From NCBI GenBank assembly GCA_002280405.1, contig NCDY01000011.1, positions 1 through 33,090 on the forward strand: 33,090 nucleotides of DNA, written 5' to 3'. The notes beneath the pieces are model-generated. The model searched no databases. It was not told where the DNA came from and was given only the letters and a program-made list of their open reading frames with translations. A program made the translations under genes and the position numbers. Source of the stretch: Rhodobacterales bacterium 32-66-9. Lineage in GTDB: Bacteria > Pseudomonadota > Alphaproteobacteria > Rhodobacterales > Rhodobacteraceae. Below, in pieces: positions 20,972 to 29,744 of the stretch. The number at the start of each line of letters is the position of its first letter. Positions within the stretch are counted from its first letter, which is position 1.

Positions 20972-21829
20972 TCAGGCCATCAATCCGCGCCAGGCCGAAA
21001 GGGCCGCCTGGGAGCCACCACCTTCGATCACGCCGAGAAGCACCGTCCCATGCAGTCGGGCGCAGACGAGACTGTGCCCGTCGATCAGGGTGACCCCCAG
21101 CATGAGACAGACCGGATCGCCTTCCTGCGCCGACATCAGGTCAAGCTGACCGATCACCGCCGCGTGCTCATCGTCAAGAAAGTCCCGCAGATGCGAGACC
21201 ATTTCTTCCGGGCCTTCGCTGCGACCATCGTCTTGGCCACCCCGGCTTAGCCAGGCGACCAGAACCGGCCCGATGCCCGTGGCGAAATCTGCGATGCTGC
21301 GACCCGAAAACCGGATCGCCGCGCGGTCAGGCGCGGGTGACGCGACATCGCCGGCTTCGTGCTCCGGCTCTTCCGCACCGACGTCATTCAGGTCGATCAG
21401 GAGAAGATCGGCCAGAAGCGCCACGGGCAGGCCCACGCTGACCTCGGCGCCGCCGCGACCGATGGGCCCCGAGATCACCCGGAGTTCCTTCCCCGGTACC
21501 GCAAGCGCCTGCAGAAGCTTGATCAGGTCATCCTTTTGCTCATCCTCCAGCACTTCCGAGCCAAGGCAGCTTTCAGCCCCGGCGAGCCCGTGGCTTGCGG
21601 TAAGACGCAACAGGCGGCGTCCGGCGACGTCGAGGGTCAGCGCAGGCCCTGCCGAAGACACGAACTCCAGCGATCGGGCCAGCATTGTCTCGTTCGCGGC
21701 GCGCAGAAGCCGGGCAACCGGGTTGCGGTCATGCGCTTCCGCAATCACCCGCGCGCCGCCCGGCAGCACGCGGATATCCGCCTGCAGGCTGGACAGCCGG
21801 GCGAGGATCGGAAGTGTAGTGTTGTTCAA
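20972..21829 (-). CDS. Protein of unknown function, last gene of the FHA/PP2C/dynamin operon
   Basis: I do not recognise this 285-residue protein. It begins MNNTTLPILARLSSLQADIR and has no signal peptide or clear membrane segment. The N-terminal half has alternating strands and helices (LTLDVAGRRLLRLT; GLPVALLADLLLIDLND). A charged, probably flexible stretch (EEPEHEAGDVASPAPD) follows at about 152-167. The C-terminal part is a mixed fold with VCLMLGVTLIDGHSLVCARL and VLLGVIEGGG. It starts 30 bp after the roadblock-like gene and is followed by a 111-bp gap before motB, so it probably belongs to the GTPase operon rather than the flagellar one. A role as adaptor or effector is only inference. 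Confidence 0.75.
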   Translation of the reverse strand: MNNTTLPILARLSSLQADIRVLPGGARVIAEAHDRNPVARLLRAANETMLARSLEFVSSAGPALTLDVAGRRLLRLTASHGLAGAESCLGSEVLEDEQKDDLIKLLQALAVPGKELRVISGPIGRGGAEVSVGLPVALLADLLLIDLNDVGAEEPEHEAGDVASPAPDRAAIRFSGRSIADFATGIGPVLVAWLSRGGQDDGRSEGPEEMVSHLRDFLDDEHAAVIGQLDLMSAQEGDPVCLMLGVTLIDGHSLVCARLHGTVLLGVIEGGGSQAALSAWRGLMA

Positions 21830-21859
21830 CGGTTCGACCGACCCCCGTCACCCGCCCTG

Positions 21860-22237
21860 TCACCCGCCATGGGTGATGCTCTCCAGCGTTTCGCGAATCT
21901 TGGGCACAAACGCGGCAAGGTCAATGCCGGGATCGCAGATGCAGCAAAGAGCATCCGCAGGTTCGGTGTCGGAGCGCAGGAACAGACGCACACTGTCCGG
22001 CCCCATCACCACGGCACAATGCGGCTCTCCGAAAGCCCCGACGGACAGGGAAAACAGGGGATCGTCAAAACTCGTTCGGGCCGCGTTGCACAACCGGTCG
22101 AGGTGTTCCTGCGTCACCGACATCGGGCCCGCGCTTGCCAGGATCATGCGCGACGACAGATCGGCAAAAGCCACCAGCCTGGCCTGGGGAAAGGCCTTCA
22201 CCATCGACCCGAGACTTTCTGCGACACCCATACCCAT
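21860..22237 (-). CDS. Small protein with a roadblock/LC7-like pattern
   Basis: A 125-residue protein, 6 bp after the single-domain dynamin-like GTPase gene. The order of elements suggests a roadblock/LC7 or profilin-like fold: an N-terminal helix, paired strands (ARLVAFADLSSRMILASAG), a helix (TQEHLDRLCNAARTSF), strands (HCAVVMGPDSVRLFLRS) and a C-terminal helix (FVPKIRETLESI). Such proteins often act as regulators or scaffolds of small GTPases, which would suit the neighbours. The LCCICDP segment holds three cysteines in four residues, unusual for a cytosolic regulator. The fold assignment is a pattern judgement and could be wrong; that the gene is real is well supported by its spacing. Confidence 0.5.
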   Translation of the reverse strand: MGMGVAESLGSMVKAFPQARLVAFADLSSRMILASAGPMSVTQEHLDRLCNAARTSFDDPLFSLSVGAFGEPHCAVVMGPDSVRLFLRSDTEPADALCCICDPGIDLAAFVPKIRETLESITHGG

Positions 22238-22243
22238 GCCGCC

Positions 22244-23200
22244 TTATGAGGTCTTCATCCGACCGGCCGGCATGGCATCGCCCGTGCCGACGATATGGTC
22301 GGCAAAGGTCACCATCGTCGGACCGGTTTCGGCGGTCGGGCGTTCGGTGCGCAGCAGGCGTTCGGTCTTGGCCTCGACCCGGCGCGGCAGGACCTTCAAC
22401 ACCGGAGTGTTGCGGATCACCATGAGCCGTTCGAAAGTCTGGGCGATCAGGCTTTGGCCAACTTCGGTCGCATCCGCCGGATCAGGCCGGATGGCGGCCT
22501 TGCCGATATCGCCCGGTTCGGGGTGGCCGGCATCGATGATGCGGTGCACGATGTCGAACAGCGCCCGGGTGAAGGCATCGGCACCGCTTTCGATCCACTT
22601 GCTCTCATCCGCGCCCGCGCGCATCGCCTGCAACAGCGACACCGGGAAAACCTCGGCGAAAAGACCCTCGGTCTCCTGGACCACGCGCTTGATCACCTTG
22701 GCGCGGTCGCTTTCGCCGACGATCTTGTCGAACCGCGTCACCAGAAGCAGGCTGTTCTGCCGCATCTCTTGCGGGAAGTTCGCCCAGACCCCGGCCTCGG
22801 ACTGCCGCCAGGCCTGGGTCGCATGGGTGCACCACAGAACCGCATCCGCCAGGTGAGCCATCCGCTCCCACACTTCGGACGACATCGAAGGGTCCGAAAT
22901 GCCGGGCATGTCGATCAGGTCGCAATAGCGCAGGATGTCGCTTTTCATGAAGATACGGATGTGTTCCGTGGTCTCGAGGCTGACATGCTCCAGCTCGCGC
23001 AGGTCCAGGTCGTAGGCATGGCCGTCGAGACCCATCGTGTAAGCATCGTCGGGGCCATAGGAGAGCCAGACCGGCGGCAACTGCGTCGCCGTCACCTTCT
23101 CCAGAAGTGGCCTTGCCCCCATCAGCACGTTGCAAAGCGTGCTTTTCCCGGAACTGAACTCGCCCATGATCGCGATACGGGGCTTGCGGGTCAGCGGCAT
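22244..23200 (-). CDS. Dynamin-like GTPase, single GTPase domain
   Basis: A 318-residue GTP-binding protein of the dynamin superfamily. It has G1 GEFSSGKST (13-21), a candidate G2 Thr39, G3 DMPG (97-100) and G4 TRFDK (155-159), all intact. The GEFSSGKST loop is typical of bacterial dynamin-like proteins. Beyond the GTPase domain only about 100 residues remain, too few for a full helical stalk, so it may work with a partner. The stretch ADAVLWCTHATQAWRQSE-to-G4 resembles the N-terminal GTPase domain of the large neighbouring protein, suggesting a paralogous pair. It starts 30 bp after that gene. Confidence 0.85.
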   Translation of the reverse strand: MPLTRKPRIAIMGEFSSGKSTLCNVLMGARPLLEKVTATQLPPVWLSYGPDDAYTMGLDGHAYDLDLRELEHVSLETTEHIRIFMKSDILRYCDLIDMPGISDPSMSSEVWERMAHLADAVLWCTHATQAWRQSEAGVWANFPQEMRQNSLLLVTRFDKIVGESDRAKVIKRVVQETEGLFAEVFPVSLLQAMRAGADESKWIESGADAFTRALFDIVHRIIDAGHPEPGDIGKAAIRPDPADATEVGQSLIAQTFERLMVIRNTPVLKVLPRRVEAKTERLLRTERPTAETGPTMVTFADHIVGTGDAMPAGRMKTS

Positions 23201-23230
23201 TCCACAGGTCCTTTCCTACCCTCTCCACAC

Positions 23231-26200
23231 CTAGTCGGCATAGATCGCCAGTTCGTCCATGATCGAGGTCAGGCATTCCTGCCGATCCTCCCAGGCGTTC
23301 ACGCCGAACAGCTCCTTCATCTCATCCATCGAGATTTCCGAACTGGCCAGCGCGCTCATCAACAGCTCGCGCTGTTCCTGCAGGAAGTCGCGCAGGGTTG
23401 ACTGGGTACGTTCGCGGAACAGCCCGATCTGGATCGTCTTCAGATCATTGATGATCGGGTCGGTCTCGGCGCGGATCAGCTTGTTGAAATCCTGCGCAAA
23501 GGCCTTGTAGCCCCGGCGACGCTGCCACCAGCCCTTCCACCAGCCGACCTGCAGGTCCAAGGCGATGGTCTGGCCCAGGTTGATCGGCGGCGGGATGTAG
23601 CTGACGACCGGCGTCTCGATCTTGAAGCCCTCGACCGTGATCGAGAAGGTCTTGCCGTAAAGGTCGGCGATCTGCACCGCCGTCTCGTTGTTCACCTCGG
23701 CCGCGATGGCGTGCATCTTTTTCAGCACGACCTGGTAGCTGGAGCTGAGCAGCATCCGCAGCCCAAGCGGGCTGTAATGCCAGGTCGCATCCTCGCCATT
23801 GGTCTGCAGGTGCTCGATCAGGCTGTTCGTCGCCCGGTCGAGGAACCTTTCATAGCTCTGGTCGATCCGGTTGGTGAAATCCTTGCAGACGGTGTTGGTC
23901 AGATGCATCAGCTTCTCGACCGCGCCAAGCTCGATCTTGCGAAGCTCTGCGTCAAGTTGCTGCGGGGTCATCGTGCGGTTCAGCTGACCGTCCGATTCCA
24001 GGATGCGGACCTGGTCGACGACATCCAGCGACTGGGCCAGGTTCAGCGCCTGGCGCGACGACTTCTGCAAAGCCTCGCGCACCGGGCCTTCGTACATCCG
24101 CTGGCCAAGAGCATCCAGAAGTGCGGGCACACCCGAGGCATGCCACACAAGCTGCTCGGCCGACCAGCTTTCCATCTTGTCGGCAAAGGCGGCGCGGGTC
24201 CAGTTGATCGCCGACTCGGTCGAGTCGTCGGTCATTTCGTCGATCTTGCCTTCCAGAACCGCGTTCGCCCAATGGGCCGAGCCGTAGATGATGTCGATGT
24301 CCGGCGGGGCGTTGTTCTTTTCCAGAGTGTCCAGGATCGAGCGGTGAATCTCGGGCACCTGGTTGGCAGGGTCCGGCAGTTCGTCGATCCGGTTCACGAA
24401 GATGATGATCTCGCGCGACTGGCGGTGCGCGATCAGGCGGATCAGCGCCATGTCCATCGTCGTCAGCGCCTGGTGCGCGGACAGCACGACGATACAGGAC
24501 CGGCTGTCGCGCACGGCATTGATCGTGATCTGCTCGCGCATCATGAAGGTGTCGTTCACGCCGGGCGTGTCGCGCACGCACAGCTGGACCGGGAAATCCT
24601 CGCGCTCGATATACAGGTCGGCAGATTTGGTGATGTCGGTGAACCGGCCCTGTTCTGCGCCACCCGACTCCTCGTCGCCGACGCAGACATAGCGGCGCAG
24701 CAGCGTGTCGTCGACCGTGCCATAGCGGTGCTCGGTGCCCAGCAGCATCTCGAACTTGCGACCGAGGCGCGCCTGCGCCTTTTCGCGCATCTGCACCACC
24801 TGCAGGCGCAGTTTCTCCAGTTCCTCATCCGCGCCCGCGCGCGCTGCAAGCTGGCCGATCCGGCCACCGTTCGAGACGAGCTTTTCCCATTCGGCATTGT
24901 CGAAGAACTTGAACTTCGCCTTCACGTTCAGCTCAGGGCTGGGCGTGTTGATGTGCAGCGAGGTGACGACCGAGGTCCAGGGGTTCACGTCGGTCGGCAG
25001 CAGGCCCGGCGCGCCGATCATCGCGTTCAGAAGCGAGGTCTTGCCCGCCTTGATCTGGCCGATCACCGTGACCGAAGGCTCGACCTCTCGCACCTGGGTC
25101 ATGATCCGGGTGACCTTCTTGGCCGTGTCCGGGTCGGCCATGGTCACGAAATCGCGCAGCACGTCCTCGAACTGCTTGATCGCATCGGCGATCCGGCCGA
25201 GGCCGGGAAAGTTGCGTTTCAGCGCGACCTCAGGCTCCAGAGCGGCGACGCCGTCAAGCTCGTCCTCGTTTTCAGCAACCGCACCGAGTCCCATGTTCAC
25301 CTCATACCTGCGGGCATGAACCGTCCAGGGCGAACGCCACAAGACAGAAGTCCCCGCAATCATGTCATAAGTTTGGAAAGTGGTCCCAATTGGGCACATT
25401 CTTGACGATTCTACGCTCACAATGGCGTCACACGGCCCGCAATGTTTCCAGTTCGCGTGACCTTTTTCCAGTTGCATCAACATGATGAGGTCCAGCACTT
25501 CCCCAAGGTCGCTGTTGATTCGGCGCATGGCTTCCGAACTGCCCCGGGAAATTACGGCCATCAACTGTTCCCCGGTCTCGCGCGCGTGGTCGAGAATCAG
25601 ATCGACCGGCACCTTGCCACCGGGGTCGATTTCGCGTTCCAGTTCGGCCGAGCGGGCCAGGATCACCGCCACCGCTTCGTCAGCCAGACCCCGGTCGGCA
25701 CCAATCTCCGGTCCGGGAGCGGCAGGCGCTTCGGTCGCGGGCGCGGCCTTTGCGGCGATCCGCGGGCGCTCGCGGCGGGGCGCGGGATCTTCGGTCTCGC
25801 TGCGGCGCTCGCGCATCATGATCGCGCGCGGCGTGAATTGCGCCGCGTCCCCCGCTGGCGGGGACGAGGGGGAAACGGGCACCTCCGCCGGGGCGCGGGC
25901 CGAAGCGGGCAGCCGCGAGATCGGTGTCATCCGCGGCTGGGACTGGGCGGGGACAGGAGGCGTCGGCGCAACCTCGCGCCCGGTGTCGCGCGCTGCCGGC
26001 GGGCGACCGAAGAGCCTGGGACGCTCTGCCGTGGCCGCCGTCCTTGGCTGCGGTGGCGCAATCTCCTCGACGGGGGCGGGGGCGGGATCGGCCGCCGGTT
26101 GCAGAGCATGCGCGGTCTCGGCACTCAGCGCGTCCGACGGGCGTTCCTCTCCGTCCGGGTCGGGTCCGCTCTCCCCTGCGGCGTCCGCGTCCGGCATCTC

Positions 26201-27802
26201 CTCGGGTCGGGCCCGCAGCGAGGACAGGTCCGGCAGCGGCGCGCCGCGCACCATGCCGGCCGCCGTGTCCCGGGTTGCACCGAACGGCTTCGGCTGGGCC
26301 GCCGCCGGGACTTCCGCAGCCGGTTCTGCAGCCGGACGCGGCGTCACCGCGCGCGGGCTCCGTTCGCTCGGTGGCGCCGGACGCTCCGGCCCAGCAGGTC
26401 GTTCCGGGGCGGCCGTGATATCGGCCAGCTTCCGTGCCAGGTCACCGTCATCGGGCGCGGACTGCCCCGTTGCCCGGGGTCGGCGCACCGGCTCGGATGG
26501 CTGCGGCTCTGGCACCGGGGCCGGTGCCTCAGCCTCTGCCTTCGACTTCCACGTAGAGCGCAGCGGCACCATCGGCGCTGCGGCCGGTTCGGCGTCCGAG
26601 GCGACGCGCTTTATCCGATCGGCAAATCGCCTGCGTGAGCCGGGCTGCCCCGGTTCGGCAGGGTCGTGTGCGATTTCGATGTCGCGTGCGGACGGGTCTT
26701 CCGGCCCGCCCACCGGCGCGGCTTGCGGCATATCCCCCGGCTCGGGCGCCATGTCGAAGTCACCGACCGGTTCCACAGTTGCCGGCTCTGCACCGCTTTC
26801 CACCGCCGCCGGATCAAGGTTTCCGGTCTGTCGCGCGCTCGCGACCCTGACGTCTTCGTCCGGCCGTGCCGCATCGGCCGCGTGCCGGGTGTCCTGCGGT
26901 TCCGGCGGCGGGGTCCAGACTTGCTGGACATTGGCCGCCTCTCCCGGCTCGGCAAAGCGGCGTGCCACCAGTTCGCTTGCCTCGACATGGCGCGCCAGCA
27001 GCAGTTCCGCCGTGTCGGTGTCCGCCCGCCGCCCCGACTGGACGCGGGTCTTGATCGCCGCAATCACGGCCGCCGCACCGCTTTCGCGGAAGAGATCGCG
27101 ATTCACCGGCCCTCCGGGGGGCACCGCCGCCCGCGCCTCTTTCGCCGATACCGACAGGATCTGGCGGAATTCCTCGCCCGCGCGCAGCTCGACCCGGTCA
27201 TGCATCGCCGAGGCCTGCTGCCGGCTGCCCAGCAGATCGACCTTGGTCAGGAACATGAAGCTGTTGTCCTTGACCGAATCGGGCAGGCTTTCCCACACCA
27301 CCTGCTCTTTCGGCAGATAGGACGTCGTGCACCAGACCACGATGTCCGCGCGTTTGCTGGCCCAGGTGGCGGCCCGTTTCTGTTCCGCCTCGATCGGCCC
27401 CGCCGAAACTTCCAGCAGGCTGATCACCTTCAGCGCCGCCAGATCCAGTTCCACCGTCACCAAGGCCGGGGCCAACGCCAGAACCTCGGCCAGGTCGCTG
27501 CCCGGCAGGATCTTGGTGCTGCCGTCGGTCAGCGTGCAGATCATCCGTGCCGTGGTGCCGTGCTGGACGATGATCGTCGGCAGACGCAGGGTTTCCGGCA
27601 CGACGACGGTGCCGACCAGAAGGTTCAGGATCGACGATTTTCCTGACCCGGGAAGGCCCAGAAGCGCGATCCGCGCCGGACGCTCCAGCCGTTCGATCAG
27701 GCGCTCGGCAGCCTCTGCCGGACCGCCGGCGGGCAAGAGCCCCCGGTCAAGTGCGCGGCCAAGCCGCTGGGCGACTGTCAGTTCCTCATCCGGATTTGCC
27801 AT
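23231..27802 (-). CDS. Giant two-GTPase dynamin-like protein with a long disordered linker
   Basis: A 1523-residue protein in one uninterrupted frame. The N-terminal GTPase domain (about 40-255) has G1 GLPGSGKSS (49-57), G4 TKVD (186-189) and a SAK-type G5 (219-221), but EVSAG (131-135) where DxxG is expected. Residues 295-700 are Pro/Ala/Glu/Arg-rich and probably disordered. A helical region with a Cys/His cluster (787-803) precedes a second, intact GTPase domain: G1 GQIKAGKTS (915-923), Thr943, G3 DTPG (1078-1081) and G4 NRID (1137-1140). Residues 1240-1520 are mainly helical, with WWKGWWQRRR (1421-1430) as a possible membrane-contacting tip. The gene starts 3 bp after the phosphatase gene. 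Membrane remodelling is inferred from family; the cellular role is unknown. Confidence 0.85.
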   Translation of the reverse strand: MANPDEELTVAQRLGRALDRGLLPAGGPAEAAERLIERLERPARIALLGLPGSGKSSILNLLVGTVVVPETLRLPTIIVQHGTTARMICTLTDGSTKILPGSDLAEVLALAPALVTVELDLAALKVISLLEVSAGPIEAEQKRAATWASKRADIVVWCTTSYLPKEQVVWESLPDSVKDNSFMFLTKVDLLGSRQQASAMHDRVELRAGEEFRQILSVSAKEARAAVPPGGPVNRDLFRESGAAAVIAAIKTRVQSGRRADTDTAELLLARHVEASELVARRFAEPGEAANVQQVWTPPPEPQDTRHAADAARPDEDVRVASARQTGNLDPAAVESGAEPATVEPVGDFDMAPEPGDMPQAAPVGGPEDPSARDIEIAHDPAEPGQPGSRRRFADRIKRVASDAEPAAAPMVPLRSTWKSKAEAEAPAPVPEPQPSEPVRRPRATGQSAPDDGDLARKLADITAAPERPAGPERPAPPSERSPRAVTPRPAAEPAAEVPAAAQPKPFGATRDTAAGMVRGAPLPDLSSLRARPEEMPDADAAGESGPDPDGEERPSDALSAETAHALQPAADPAPAPVEEIAPPQPRTAATAERPRLFGRPPAARDTGREVAPTPPVPAQSQPRMTPISRLPASARAPAEVPVSPSSPPAGDAAQFTPRAIMMRERRSETEDPAPRRERPRIAAKAAPATEAPAAPGPEIGADRGLADEAVAVILARSAELEREIDPGGKVPVDLILDHARETGEQLMAVISRGSSEAMRRINSDLGEVLDLIMLMQLEKGHANWKHCGPCDAIVSVESSRMCPIGTTFQTYDMIAGTSVLWRSPWTVHARRYEVNMGLGAVAENEDELDGVAALEPEVALKRNFPGLGRIADAIKQFEDVLRDFVTMADPDTAKKVTRIMTQVREVEPSVTVIGQIKAGKTSLLNAMIGAPGLLPTDVNPWTSVVTSLHINTPSPELNVKAKFKFFDNAEWEKLVSNGGRIGQLAARAGADEELEKLRLQVVQMREKAQARLGRKFEMLLGTEHRYGTVDDTLLRRYVCVGDEESGGAEQGRFTDITKSADLYIEREDFPVQLCVRDTPGVNDTFMMREQITINAVRDSRSCIVVLSAHQALTTMDMALIRLIAHRQSREIIIFVNRIDELPDPANQVPEIHRSILDTLEKNNAPPDIDIIYGSAHWANAVLEGKIDEMTDDSTESAINWTRAAFADKMESWSAEQLVWHASGVPALLDALGQRMYEGPVREALQKSSRQALNLAQSLDVVDQVRILESDGQLNRTMTPQQLDAELRKIELGAVEKLMHLTNTVCKDFTNRIDQSYERFLDRATNSLIEHLQTNGEDATWHYSPLGLRMLLSSSYQVVLKKMHAIAAEVNNETAVQIADLYGKTFSITVEGFKIETPVVSYIPPPINLGQTIALDLQVGWWKGWWQRRRGYKAFAQDFNKLIRAETDPIINDLKTIQIGLFRERTQSTLRDFLQEQRELLMSALASSEISMDEMKELFGVNAWEDRQECLTSIMDELAIYAD

Positions 27803-27805
27803 ATC

Positions 27806-28936
27806 TTACTTTATGACGGTGACTCGCCGTGGCCGCAACCTGACTGGAGACAAATCCTCGACCGCCGGGTCGGGGTTGCTTTCTTGCACCGCCTGCCCGG
27901 CCTGCCGCGGCGTCCGTGCGACCCATGGTTCCGGTAAAGGCAGCGGTGTCGGAGCCAGTCTCGGGGTCGGCGCCGGGGCCCTTGCCGGTCCGATCACCGG
28001 GGCGGCCGCCGGAACGGGCGTCACGAATTGGGCAGGCTTCTGCAACGGCTGCGACAAATGATCCGGTGCCACTGTCGTCAAGCGGCGCGGCCGCGCGACA
28101 GCCGTCGAAGGCCCGCGCGGGCGTTCCTGCCCGGACCGGACCGAGGCGTCATTCACCTTGATCACGGTAAAGCTGATGTTGTCCTGATCCGGGTCATCCA
28201 GGCGGATCAGGTCTTCCAGAAGCCGTTCGGCAATCTCGGTCGACCGCGCCTTGCGATACCGGTTCAGCACCTTCTCGATCTGGGCATTGGTCAGGAACTG
28301 CACCCCGTCCGAGGCGCAAAGCACGATGTCACCGGCCTGCAGCTCATACGGCTTCGTCGGGCAGTCGATCTTCGGGATCCGCGTGCCCATCAGGACCGAG
28401 ATCAGACAGTTGCGGTCGGGATGGTTGGCCGCGACTTCGGGGTCCATCAGGCCGGACTTCACCATGAAGTCGATCTGCGGCGCCATCGAATGATCCTCGT
28501 TCAGCTGCGAAAGCCTGCCGCCGCGGAACAGGAACAGCGGCGAATCGCCGATCGAGATCCACCACAGCCGGTTTTCCACCAGCGCCGGCACCACCAGGGT
28601 CGCCCCCATCCCCTCGGTCTCGGGGTGGCTGCGGGTGTGCTGGCGCAGCGTCTCGTTCGCGAAATCCGCGATGTTGCGCAGGATCTCGGGCGCCCGGGCC
28701 TCGAACGACCGCACATCCGCGAAATGGAATTTGAGCTCGCTGAACACCTCGGTCAGGACGATCTTGGACGCGACATCGCCCGCCGCATGTCCACCCATTC
28801 CGTCGGCCAGCACCACGAACCCGGCCTCCGCCCCCACCGGGAAGTCTGCGGTGATCGCATCTTCCTGATAGTCGCGTGCGCCCTGGCTGATCCCCGAGGC
28901 TACGTCATAGCGTGGCTCACGCGATCGCCATATCAT
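27806..28936 (-). CDS. PP2C-family serine/threonine protein phosphatase with a disordered C-terminal tail
   Basis: Metal-dependent phosphoserine/phosphothreonine phosphatase of 376 residues. The catalytic domain (about 10-262) has the full motif set: RDYQED (21-26), DGMGGHAAGD (45-54), GMGATLVV (109-116), SIGDSPLFLF (128-137), LCASDG (206-211) and QDN (251-253). These supply the aspartates for the two-metal site. Residues 263-376 are Pro/Arg/Ala-rich and likely disordered. The start overlaps the FHA gene by 20 bp and its stop lies 3 bp before the giant GTPase gene. This FHA-phosphatase pairing resembles the phosphorylation switch of type VI secretion loci, but no secretion gene and no Ser/Thr kinase occur here. 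Confidence 0.92.
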   Translation of the reverse strand: MIWRSREPRYDVASGISQGARDYQEDAITADFPVGAEAGFVVLADGMGGHAAGDVASKIVLTEVFSELKFHFADVRSFEARAPEILRNIADFANETLRQHTRSHPETEGMGATLVVPALVENRLWWISIGDSPLFLFRGGRLSQLNEDHSMAPQIDFMVKSGLMDPEVAANHPDRNCLISVLMGTRIPKIDCPTKPYELQAGDIVLCASDGVQFLTNAQIEKVLNRYRKARSTEIAERLLEDLIRLDDPDQDNISFTVIKVNDASVRSGQERPRGPSTAVARPRRLTTVAPDHLSQPLQKPAQFVTPVPAAAPVIGPARAPAPTPRLAPTPLPLPEPWVARTPRQAGQAVQESNPDPAVEDLSPVRLRPRRVTVIK

Positions 28937-29744
28937 TCGCGTCCCCCTCGGAGTCGACCGCCGACCAATTGAAGTCGGATGTACACAACACTTTCAACAC
29001 CAGAGTGGTCTCTCCGATCTGGATTTCGTCCCCGTCGGCCGCAACCGATGTCGACAGCAGGGGCTTTCCGTTCAGCCGCACCAGGTTCGACTTGCCGCCA
29101 TGCCCGATGTGGAACTGATGCGTCATCGGATCGTAGGCGATTGCCGCATGATGCTGGCGCGAAATCGCCATGTCTCCGAAATCCAGCGCGATGGTCTGGT
29201 CCGACCCACGCCCGATCTGCGACACGCCACGCATCACCGGGAAGGCCGCACCGCGCCCGGGGCCGGCCTTGATCACCAGCCAGCCCGTCGGATACATCAC
29301 CACGCCCGACTTGTCGCCCGGCTCGATGGAGTCCTCCATCCGGCCTTCGTCGAACAACGGCACGACCGATGCCGGTTGCGGCTCGAACCCCAGCACCCGC
29401 GTCTTGGTCCGCGTCGCCCGCCGCCGCACACCCGCATCGGCGGCAATCTCGCGCGCGGGCGTCGGAGCTGGCACCGGGGCCACCGGCTCTTCTTCCATCT
29501 CCCAGATATTCACCCGGGGCGTCGGGCCTTCCTTGGCCACCACCGCGCTGTTGGCGGTCTGCGTCAGGACCTCGGGCGCGCCGTCGGCGAGTTTGGGGAA
29601 CCGGCCCGCAGCCGGACCGTTGCCCTTGGCGACAGACTCGATCGCGGCCTTGGTGGCCTTGATCTGCTCGGCTTCGCTGCCCTTGAACCGGGCACCGCGA
29701 GATGCCTTGGCGTTCCGACGAAACAGCCAGTCGAAGAACTTCAT
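28917..29744 (-). CDS. FHA-domain protein, first gene of the GTPase operon
   Basis: A 275-residue phosphothreonine-binding adaptor. The start at 29744 (MKFFDWLFRRNAKASR) was preferred to an upstream ATG because GGAG lies about 10 nt before it. Residues 1-150 are mostly flexible, with an amphipathic basic N-terminus that could touch membranes and a basic Thr-rich patch (RRRATRTKTR, 107-116). The FHA domain spans about 155-252. Arg179 lies in IGRG, Ser195-Arg196-x-His198 in ISRQHH, and Asn225 in RLNGKPL, the residues that normally contact phosphothreonine. By family knowledge it would recruit a phosphorylated partner; the adjacent PP2C enzyme is the natural eraser. The phosphorylated target is unknown. 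Confidence 0.88.
   Translation of the reverse strand: MKFFDWLFRRNAKASRGARFKGSEAEQIKATKAAIESVAKGNGPAAGRFPKLADGAPEVLTQTANSAVVAKEGPTPRVNIWEMEEEPVAPVPAPTPAREIAADAGVRRRATRTKTRVLGFEPQPASVVPLFDEGRMEDSIEPGDKSGVVMYPTGWLVIKAGPGRGAAFPVMRGVSQIGRGSDQTIALDFGDMAISRQHHAAIAYDPMTHQFHIGHGGKSNLVRLNGKPLLSTSVAADGDEIQIGETTLVLKVLCTSDFNWSAVDSEGDANDMAIA

Follow-up and report, generated by a model that had tools for sequence, protein, structure and literature searches.

Dynamin-family GTPases encoded with FHA, PP2C and roadblock-fold proteins in a conserved gene module of Rhodobacterales

We found that six minus-strand genes of Rhodobacterales bacterium 32-66-9, lying in an analysed stretch of 33,090 nucleotides (hereafter the window), are real parts of one conserved module, as confirmed by their arrangement in other genera. 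As a rule the module comes with a kinase of its own; at this site the window and its close relatives lack it. We read the window genes as the effector side of a module conserved in Rhodobacterales, in which a phospho-switch would control dynamins, and we give this reading a probability of roughly 45%. Its function, as it follows from the protein families and predicted folds, would most likely be phospho-controlled membrane tethering or repair.

Results

Layout of the locus

The six open reading frames are co-directional and tightly packed on the minus strand. The FHA and PP2C frames overlap by 20 bp and the subsequent gaps measure 3, 30, 6 and 30 bp; the six packed genes described in the initial annotation were thus reproduced in coordinates, overlap and spacing.

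28917..29744, minus strand: FHA-domain protein, 275 aa (Pfam FHA, 6e-7), with RTKTRVLGF N-terminal to the FHA domain and a start at the conserved M-K-F
27806..28936, minus strand: PP2C-family phosphatase, 376 aa (Pfam PP2C_2, 2e-9), with a Pro-rich tail
25454..27802, minus strand: G1 portion of a 1523-aa open reading frame, with a P-loop GTPase domain, a long Pro-rich linker and a conserved C-terminal stretch
25453..25458, minus strand: junction left by a 43-bp deletion, as seen on alignment with 8 close relatives
25348..25423, minus strand: 76-bp G1-D intergenic element, identical or nearly identical in close relatives
23231..25294, minus strand: D, bacterial dynamin-like protein predicted to be full-length, 687 aa when counted from the start most members of the family use (Dynamin_N; structural model)
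22244..23200, minus strand: G3, dynamin-family GTPase, 318 aa, partner gene of D (Dynamin_N)
21860..22237, minus strand: RB, protein of predicted roadblock/LC7 (MglB-like) fold, 125 aa
20972..21829, minus strand: U, conserved protein, 285 aa, final gene of the module (open reading frame, conservation in relatives)

The Pfam matches, including those of Dynamin_N to D (4e-14) and G3 (9e-10), all lie above the curated cut-offs. An alternative start for the FHA gene was dropped, as position 29744 fits the conserved M-K-F. A scan for sigma-70 promoters and terminators performed no better than on shuffles. The G1-D intergenic element is present as a single copy in the genome and found no match in Rfam.

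G1 and D are separate genes in relatives

The two-headed dynamin proposed for this locus turned out not to be the native state of the family. All eight aligned close relatives carry G1 and D as two separate genes, and the alignment shows 43 bp, close to the end of G1, to be missing from the window. This deletion shifts the frame past the usual G1 stop, which accounts for the apparent two-headed 1523-aa protein, a frame peculiar to this assembly, and it shortens the conserved C-terminal stretch of G1 in the window copy. D was found in 30 of the 32 genomes of the genus, with a 1524-codon frame in the window genome only; the next longest D-containing frame has 748 codons, some frames there ending at contig ends. 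The DxxG motif is not kept in G1, the motif counts being taken on 85 rows in which G1 directly precedes D.

Conservation across Rhodobacterales

The spread of D is patchy, covering 40 of 112 sampled Rhodobacterales genera and 98 of 292 genomes. Eight genes stand in the order kinase-FHA-PP2C-G1-D-G3-RB-U, with no gap above 600 bp, in 27 of the 40 dynamin-bearing genera, and the same order is found on a named Leisingera plasmid. Conservation of gene order in other genera excludes a chance arrangement, and the module survived this neighbourhood search, in which homologues scattered over the genomes would have spoken against it. In five of the 40 genera the 20 kb that were read show D-G3 pairs but no gene of the signalling set.

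Across 27 loci, G1, D, RB and U show pairwise distances that correlate at 0.53-0.83, calculated with no species-tree control, and those of FHA and kinase correlate weakly (r 0.16). The 27 loci differ slightly from the 27 full-order genera, with L181 in and L196 out.

Relatives were searched with the shorter P0003 protein and the dynamin GTPase alignment A4. The first set consists of the best 80 of 495 loci and is therefore biased to close relatives; one weak match among 16 fetched stretches, L050, was then left aside. The genus set partly repeats earlier genomes (L118 = L037, L188 = L088, L160 = L087, L079 = L035), as judged from the lengths of their contigs. Start codons of relatives were chosen by longest open reading frame, so that small negative gaps and lengths are inexact.

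The GTPases D and G3

The GTPase-domain motifs of the G1, G3 and G4 type, GQxKAGKT, DTPG and NRID, are conserved in D. Its predicted structure (pLDDT 80.3) has helices at 389-434, 444-499, 510-550 and 596-651; between the last two lies a tip, aromatic and basic in composition, that is modelled less confidently. The best Foldseek matches are IniA, SynDLP, BDLP and Cj-DLP (E 1e-14 to 9e-14 for the first three); the bacterial dynamins in ranks 1-9 have modest whole-chain TM-scores of 0.33-0.48. These models support D as a bacterial dynamin with a predicted long helical stalk. A phage origin was considered and dropped, since D matched no phage record.

D and G3 are adjacent in 36 of 37 loci, a count that covers L160-L196. 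With one split copy set aside, the G3 proteins of L081-L130 measure 269-420 aa, and G3 is longer in some other loci, where starts are uncertain; at about 320 aa it appears too short for a full stalk, judged by length. In Pfam the window GTPases match Dynamin_N and MMR_HSR1, with no MglA-type small GTPase partner among them.

RB and U

The AlphaFold model of RB (pLDDT 89.6) finds its best Foldseek matches in Roadblock/LC7 3kye (E 9e-8, TM 0.77) and MglB, with the MglA-MglB complex also among its nearest folds. The predicted structure thus upholds the roadblock-like assignment of this 125-aa protein. Ten RB members gave no roadblock match in Pfam, the best PDB profile match of RB had an E of 0.2 with none named roadblock, and RB showed no homology to U. 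Searches of Pfam, NCBIfam, PADLOC and PHROGs gave no family match for RB or U at the thresholds applied. Of 36 loci within L160-L196, 30 have RB directly after G3. A second small protein beside D-G3 pairs, A8, looked roadblock-like by eye and matched nothing when searched.

FHA protein, phosphatase and kinase

In two sets of FHA family members, 65 of 66 proteins and 29 of 30 proteins have a TRxLGF-type motif, and the same pattern occurs in none of the other seven module families. This near-invariant TRLLGF stretch is a candidate phospho-site, although it could instead be a docking site, which would weigh against our main reading. Family alignments show conserved signature residues in the kinase (HRD and DFG), PP2C and FHA proteins, at positions that we take to be those that matter, including the metal-binding motifs of PP2C. 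Against NCBIfam, the phosphatase matches Stp1/PP2C at 4e-40, below that model's equivalog cut-off, and the FHA protein matches OdhI at 4e-10, also below cut-off.

We found no linked kinase in the 12 close relatives whose sequence reaches far enough. Related kinases, placed in a kinase tree, are located elsewhere in the genome, and one of them, C26 of the window's own genome, is adjoined by LysM/solute-binding-like genes. Of the 51 kinases of L035-L130, a set rich in Yoonia and its relatives, 41 show a transmembrane segment after the kinase domain; across genera 9 of 30 do. Among 139 loci searched, 5 have LysM/solute-binding-like genes within or beside their kinase/FHA/PP2C block.

Discussion

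From these families and folds we infer the phosphorylation targets, a complex, its membrane action, a signal and a kinase serving the window. A Ser/Thr kinase, membrane-spanning in some genera but soluble in the majority, would phosphorylate a threonine of the FHA protein and maybe also the GTPases; in the window and its close relatives it would act in trans. The FHA domain would read the mark and PP2C remove it, and the outcome would gate a complex of D, its partner G3, G1 and RB. In such a complex G1, lacking DxxG, might be a subunit whose linker is long and flexible, and RB might act as a GAP, co-regulator or platform for one of the three GTPases. D, via its stalk and tip, would tether, fuse or repair membrane.

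Several observations weigh against this reading: the window copy has a shortened, fused G1 and no linked kinase, the FHA/kinase distance correlation is low, the TM-scores of D are modest, and five genera carry D-G3 pairs apart from the signalling genes. We consider doubtful the more extended proposal of a membrane-signalling pathway running from the kinase, transmembrane in some lineages and there accompanied by periplasmic LysM/solute-binding-like sensors, through FHA/PP2C to a three-GTPase dynamin complex with a roadblock regulator of its own. Envelope sensing, for which the transmembrane kinases of L035-L130 and the sensor-like genes speak, is the weakest step of the model and cannot be general, given the proportion of membrane-spanning kinases across genera and the few loci with sensor-like genes.

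An anti-phage system, in which kinase-activated dynamins act on the membrane during infection through delayed lysis or an abortive response, is in our view unlikely. DynA of B. subtilis is reported to confer phage resistance at the population level (PMC8844932). The patchy spread, the plasmid copies, weak LeoA profile matches of both GTPases in PADLOC and a match of one operon kinase to the defence kinase model MAD6 (4e-39, far below cut-off) would fit such a role. However, PADLOC returned for the six window proteins only GTPase-level LeoA/LeoBC/mad8 matches and no listed system's component set, and D lacks phage matches. The flanks look metabolic or transport-related (10 loci by eye, 3 plasmid records by annotation), D is kept in nearly all genomes of the genus, and the module has IspB as its neighbour in each of the 12 close relatives with a contig extending that far.

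We regard as quite improbable a polarity or localisation switch like MglA/MglB, with RB and G3 as a GTPase/GAP pair that, controlled by the kinase, positions D at a pole or division site. A roadblock fold encoded beside a GTPase gene is common to both systems, and the predicted fold of RB and its place after G3 are what such a switch would lead one to expect. The GTPases here are nevertheless dynamin-family, G3 included, and only some members of the window's clade have the tested flagellar genes close to the module.

That same distribution makes a flagellar accessory operon, suggested by nearby MotB/FlgE/FlgK genes, very unlikely. MotB lies downstream of the module in the window, and a search of the 96 loci L035-L130 found it there in 12, all of them within L051-L080. 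The flanks fetched for L081-L130 (50 loci) and L035-L050 (16 loci) did not show it, nor did the four close relatives L057, L059, L060 and L072, which keep the IspB flank and extend more than 7 kb past the module. The module is independent of its flagellar neighbours.

That the module is left over from, or a satellite of, the phospho-switch of type VI secretion is scarcely credible: kinase, FHA and PP2C are the classical threonine-phosphorylation parts of that system and T6SS_VipA occurs in 11 of 28 module genomes, but it was not found in the other 17, including the window's own genome (81.5% complete), so that the module does not depend on T6SS, and the three annotated plasmid stretches hold no T6SS genes. 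The gene sets of relatives likewise bear out the initial view that the module contains no secretion genes.

Returning to the phospho-switched dynamin module, one of the nearest known arrangements is Cj-DLP1/DLP2 of Campylobacter jejuni, two dynamin-family genes side by side in an operon (PMC6104087). The likeness lies in the adjacent pair and in the match of D to the 5owv/5oxf chains in both sequence profile and fold. G3 differs in being short for a full stalk by its length, and the available part of that source mentions only an HcpA-like beta-lactamase as a further operon member, and no kinase, FHA, PP2C or roadblock protein.

IniA, SynDLP and BDLP, the closest structural matches of D, are not, to our knowledge, accompanied by genes for a roadblock protein and a switch based on phospho-threonine. 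The PpkA-PppA-Fha set of T6SS brings together a kinase, a phosphatase and an FHA reader, as the module does, whereas the module has dynamin-family GTPases as neighbours. In the GarA/OdhI switch a Thr-bearing stretch with an ETT motif precedes the FHA domain; the module motif is instead KTRLLGF, and the partner genes encode GTPases rather than a dehydrogenase.

How bacterial dynamins are switched on is, as far as we know, largely open. Here an order-wide genetic unit brings a dynamin pair together with a roadblock protein and with the kinase, reader and phosphatase of a phospho-switch, which makes such switching directly testable in harmless cultured strains; the environmental strains Yoonia vestfoldensis DSM 16212 (L103) and Leisingera aquaemixtae R2C4 (L212) carry the eight-gene operon. 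Were the more extended signalling proposal true, we would know of no earlier bacterial dynamin machine under threonine-phosphorylation control, nor of any earlier roadblock-regulated dynamin.

The initial impression that no named system has this composition held up in our literature searches; the combination of dynamin, phospho-switch and probable roadblock regulator was not found in the literature searched and is known here from genes and predicted folds. The three plasmid records give RB and U no annotation beyond hypothetical protein. G1 is likewise hypothetical on two of them, and the third calls its G1-like gene a dynamin family protein.

Conservation of the gene order across Rhodobacterales

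The module discussed here comprises a kinase, FHA, PP2C, G1 (the first GTPase), D (the full-length dynamin-like protein that follows it), G3 (a dynamin-family GTPase), RB (a roadblock-like protein) and U (the last gene). The six tightly packed minus-strand genes described in the initial annotation were all found in the window, with spacings of -20, 3, 30, 6 and 30 bp from FHA to U, in a draft genome (81.5% complete, 177 contigs).

Genes of the module in the window
28917-29744, minus strand, FHA protein (Pfam FHA above cut-off)
27806-28936, minus strand, PP2C phosphatase (Pfam PP2C_2 above cut-off)
23231-27802, minus strand, 1523-aa GTPase ORF covering G1 and D (Pfam Dynamin_N above cut-off)
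22244-23200, minus strand, G3, 318-aa GTPase (Pfam Dynamin_N above cut-off)
21860-22237, minus strand, RB, 125-aa protein (no Pfam match)
20972-21829, minus strand, U, 285-aa protein (no Pfam match)

In a family-wide sample, G3 matches occurred in 16 of 61 genomes, including the window's own; seven loci (L036-L042) had identical neighbours in identical order, with a Ser/Thr kinase ahead of FHA, and the remaining loci had partial or rearranged neighbourhoods. Scanning genome contigs with a dynamin alignment yielded 495 related stretches, the best 80 of which all belonged to Rhodobacterales genera or to unclassified alphaproteobacterial or Pseudomonadota MAGs. Among these best 80, adjacency was counted for the 50 loci that do not belong to the window's clade of close relatives, excluding loci cut by a contig end: kinase-FHA were adjacent in 43/45, FHA-PP2C in 45/45, PP2C-G1 in 46/47, G1-D in 48/49, D-G3 in 50/50, G3-RB in 46/48 and RB-U in 46/46.

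An order-wide sample gave a dynamin match in 98 of 292 genomes and 40 of 112 genera, and one locus per positive genus was then read to reduce the weight of close relatives. The proposal that these gene families are co-located beyond the window was borne out, with all eight genes in the same order and every gap at most 600 bp in 27 of the 40 genera (L196 among them). Of the others, one had its kinase 4.2 kb ahead (L181), one lacked a detectable roadblock gene (L193), one, the window's own genus, carried the module without a linked kinase, one was cut by a contig end (L177), three held rearranged module parts (L046, L191, L192), five had D-G3 pairs alone in the stretch read (L171, L173, L178, L179/L047, L186) and one lay on a contig too short to judge gene order (L174). 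We conclude that the module is, with near certainty, a conserved functional unit.

Two side observations were made in this set. The L196 operon is complete except that D is broken into separate ORFs of 412 and 276 aa, and the D-G3 pairs of L173, L178, L179 and L186 are tandem doubles with no kinase, FHA or PP2C within the 20 kb read.

The fused G1-D frame and the G1-D gap

The two-headed dynamin of the initial annotation did not hold up as a feature of the module. G1 and D are separate genes in the window's clade, 88-128 bp apart (interquartile range), and although D is present in 30 of 32 genomes of the genus, the long fused frame occurs in the window alone. Alignment with eight close relatives showed that 43 bases are missing from the window shortly before the G1 end; the resulting frame shift bypasses the usual G1 stop, and the reading frame continues across the intergenic stretch into D. 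Since the genome is a draft, this may be either a real mutation or an assembly error. Bacillus subtilis DynA consists of two fused dynamins, according to PMC6104087, and such a fusion is therefore not impossible; the window's version, however, unites reading frames that differ in phase in its relatives.

Features of the G1-D boundary
25453-25458, minus strand, junction of the 43-bp deletion seen in comparison with eight close relatives
25348-25423, minus strand, 76-bp G1-D intergenic element conserved in the clade

The 76-bp element, present once in the window's genome, is conserved even though the codons on both sides diverge: it is identical in 8 of 30 clade loci, and identity is 96% or higher in 13, these 8 included. 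It holds the palindrome CCCAATTGGG. In 14 aligned loci of other lineages, a different shared stretch occupies the G1-D gap.

The unlinked kinase

In all 12 clade loci whose sequence extends far enough, FHA has no kinase ahead of it, and an IspB gene takes the flanking position. Operon-type kinases were found elsewhere in the window's genome, on contigs C26 and C123 and as fragments at contig ends (C57 and C19).

Kinase loci elsewhere in the genome
L131 7441-12186 (contig C26), Ser/Thr kinase predicted to have a TM segment, then two LysM/solute-binding-like genes
L132 6714-10340 (contig C123), stand-alone kinase-FHA-PP2C triad, paralogue of the window's FHA-PP2C pair

The C26 kinase is closest to the kinases of module loci L191 (74% identity) and L125 (68%), and genes homologous to its two LysM/solute-binding-like neighbours lie in or beside the kinase/FHA/PP2C block in 5 of 139 loci searched (L125, L181, L210, L211, L046). 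Among five such proteins scanned, LysM scored above the Pfam cut-off in one and just below it in another; SBP_bac_3 was under the cut-off in every scanned protein showing it.

The C123 kinase has matches in all 32 genomes of the genus, and the triad was present in 10 of 10 loci read (the window's genome and nine others of the genus). The catalytic part of its PP2C shares 82% identity with that of the window, the figure for the operon copy of Roseobacter sp. CCS2 being 63.5%. The phospho-switch therefore appears to have undergone duplication; the window's module most likely relies on a kinase supplied in trans by C26 or C123.

Protein features and possible function

The AlphaFold model of D (mean pLDDT 80.3) shows a stalk of long helices, and its tip region contains the stretch WWxxWWQRRRGY; the model's best Foldseek matches were IniA, SynDLP, BDLP and Cj-DLP (E 1e-14 to 1e-11), with TM-scores of only 0.33-0.48. 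In 85 rows with G1 directly ahead of D, G1 retained the P-loop K (80/85) and TxxD (T 81/85, D 80/85), but not DxxG (first place E 74, D 8; last place A 55, S 11, T 8). G1 may thus bind GTP while hydrolysing it poorly.

Neither RB nor U belongs to a family in Pfam, NCBIfam, PADLOC or PHROGs. The predicted fold of RB, alpha-beta-beta-alpha-(alpha)-beta-beta-beta-alpha (pLDDT 89.6), is closest to Roadblock/LC7 and MglB; U had no match and a mean column identity of 27%. A TRLLGF-type motif occurred in 65 of 66 FHA proteins in one set and 29 of 30 in another, the same pattern being absent from the other seven module families. A hydropathy-predicted TM segment C-terminal of the kinase domain was found in 41 of 51 kinases from L035-L130, versus 9 of 30 from the across-genera set (L160-L199).

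A second small, highly conserved protein family without a library match adjoins D-G3 pairs and looks roadblock-like by eye; the phospho-switch is not nearby in four of its five loci.

Second small protein
L040 4480-4836
L171 13177-13575
L173 8853-9266
L186 10763-11119
L198 12563-13024

Across 27 loci, pairwise-distance correlations were highest among G1, D, RB and U (D-G1 0.83, D-RB 0.73, D-U 0.70) and lowest for kinase-FHA (0.16). Being uncorrected for the species tree, they suggest at most a core of GTPases whose signalling arm is more readily exchanged.

Our best reading is that the module is a phospho-regulated membrane machine, to which, in its details, we give a little under even odds. 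Membership of a flagellar unit is disfavoured, since only 12 of 96 loci have MotB near the module and every one of these belongs to the window's clade. A T6SS part was likewise rejected, as T6SS_VipA was present in just 11 of 28 module genomes and not found in the window's own (81.5% complete). Elsewhere, the neighbouring genes resembled transport and metabolism genes (judged by eye for 10 loci, from annotation for 3), and a tRNA accompanied 10 of the 33 loci scanned. The six window proteins matched no defence family except for GTPase-level matches to LeoA/LeoBC/mad8, and one relative's kinase matched MAD6 below the cut-off; DynA and phage are the subject of PMC8844932. The earlier statement that no named system with this composition is known agrees with the open-licence literature searched, where the gene combination was not found, papers outside that scope possibly having been missed. 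Every part is of a known kind; it is their assembly that, as far as searched, was not found in print.

Taxonomic range and replicons

Beyond the window's family, class- and phylum-wide samples contain hardly any copies of the dynamin GTPase domain: 2 of 385 genomes matched in the former (1e-15), namely the window's own and one of its family, and 9 of 398 in the latter (1e-10), eight of them, the window's own included, from that family. The ninth, the sole match outside the family in these samples, comes from a different alphaproteobacterial family and is a D-G3 pair (L197). D had no match among phage records. Plasmid copies were found in Leisingera, Ruegeria and Rhodobacter (18 records), and a Leisingera aquaemixtae plasmid carries the complete, profile-checked eight-gene set.
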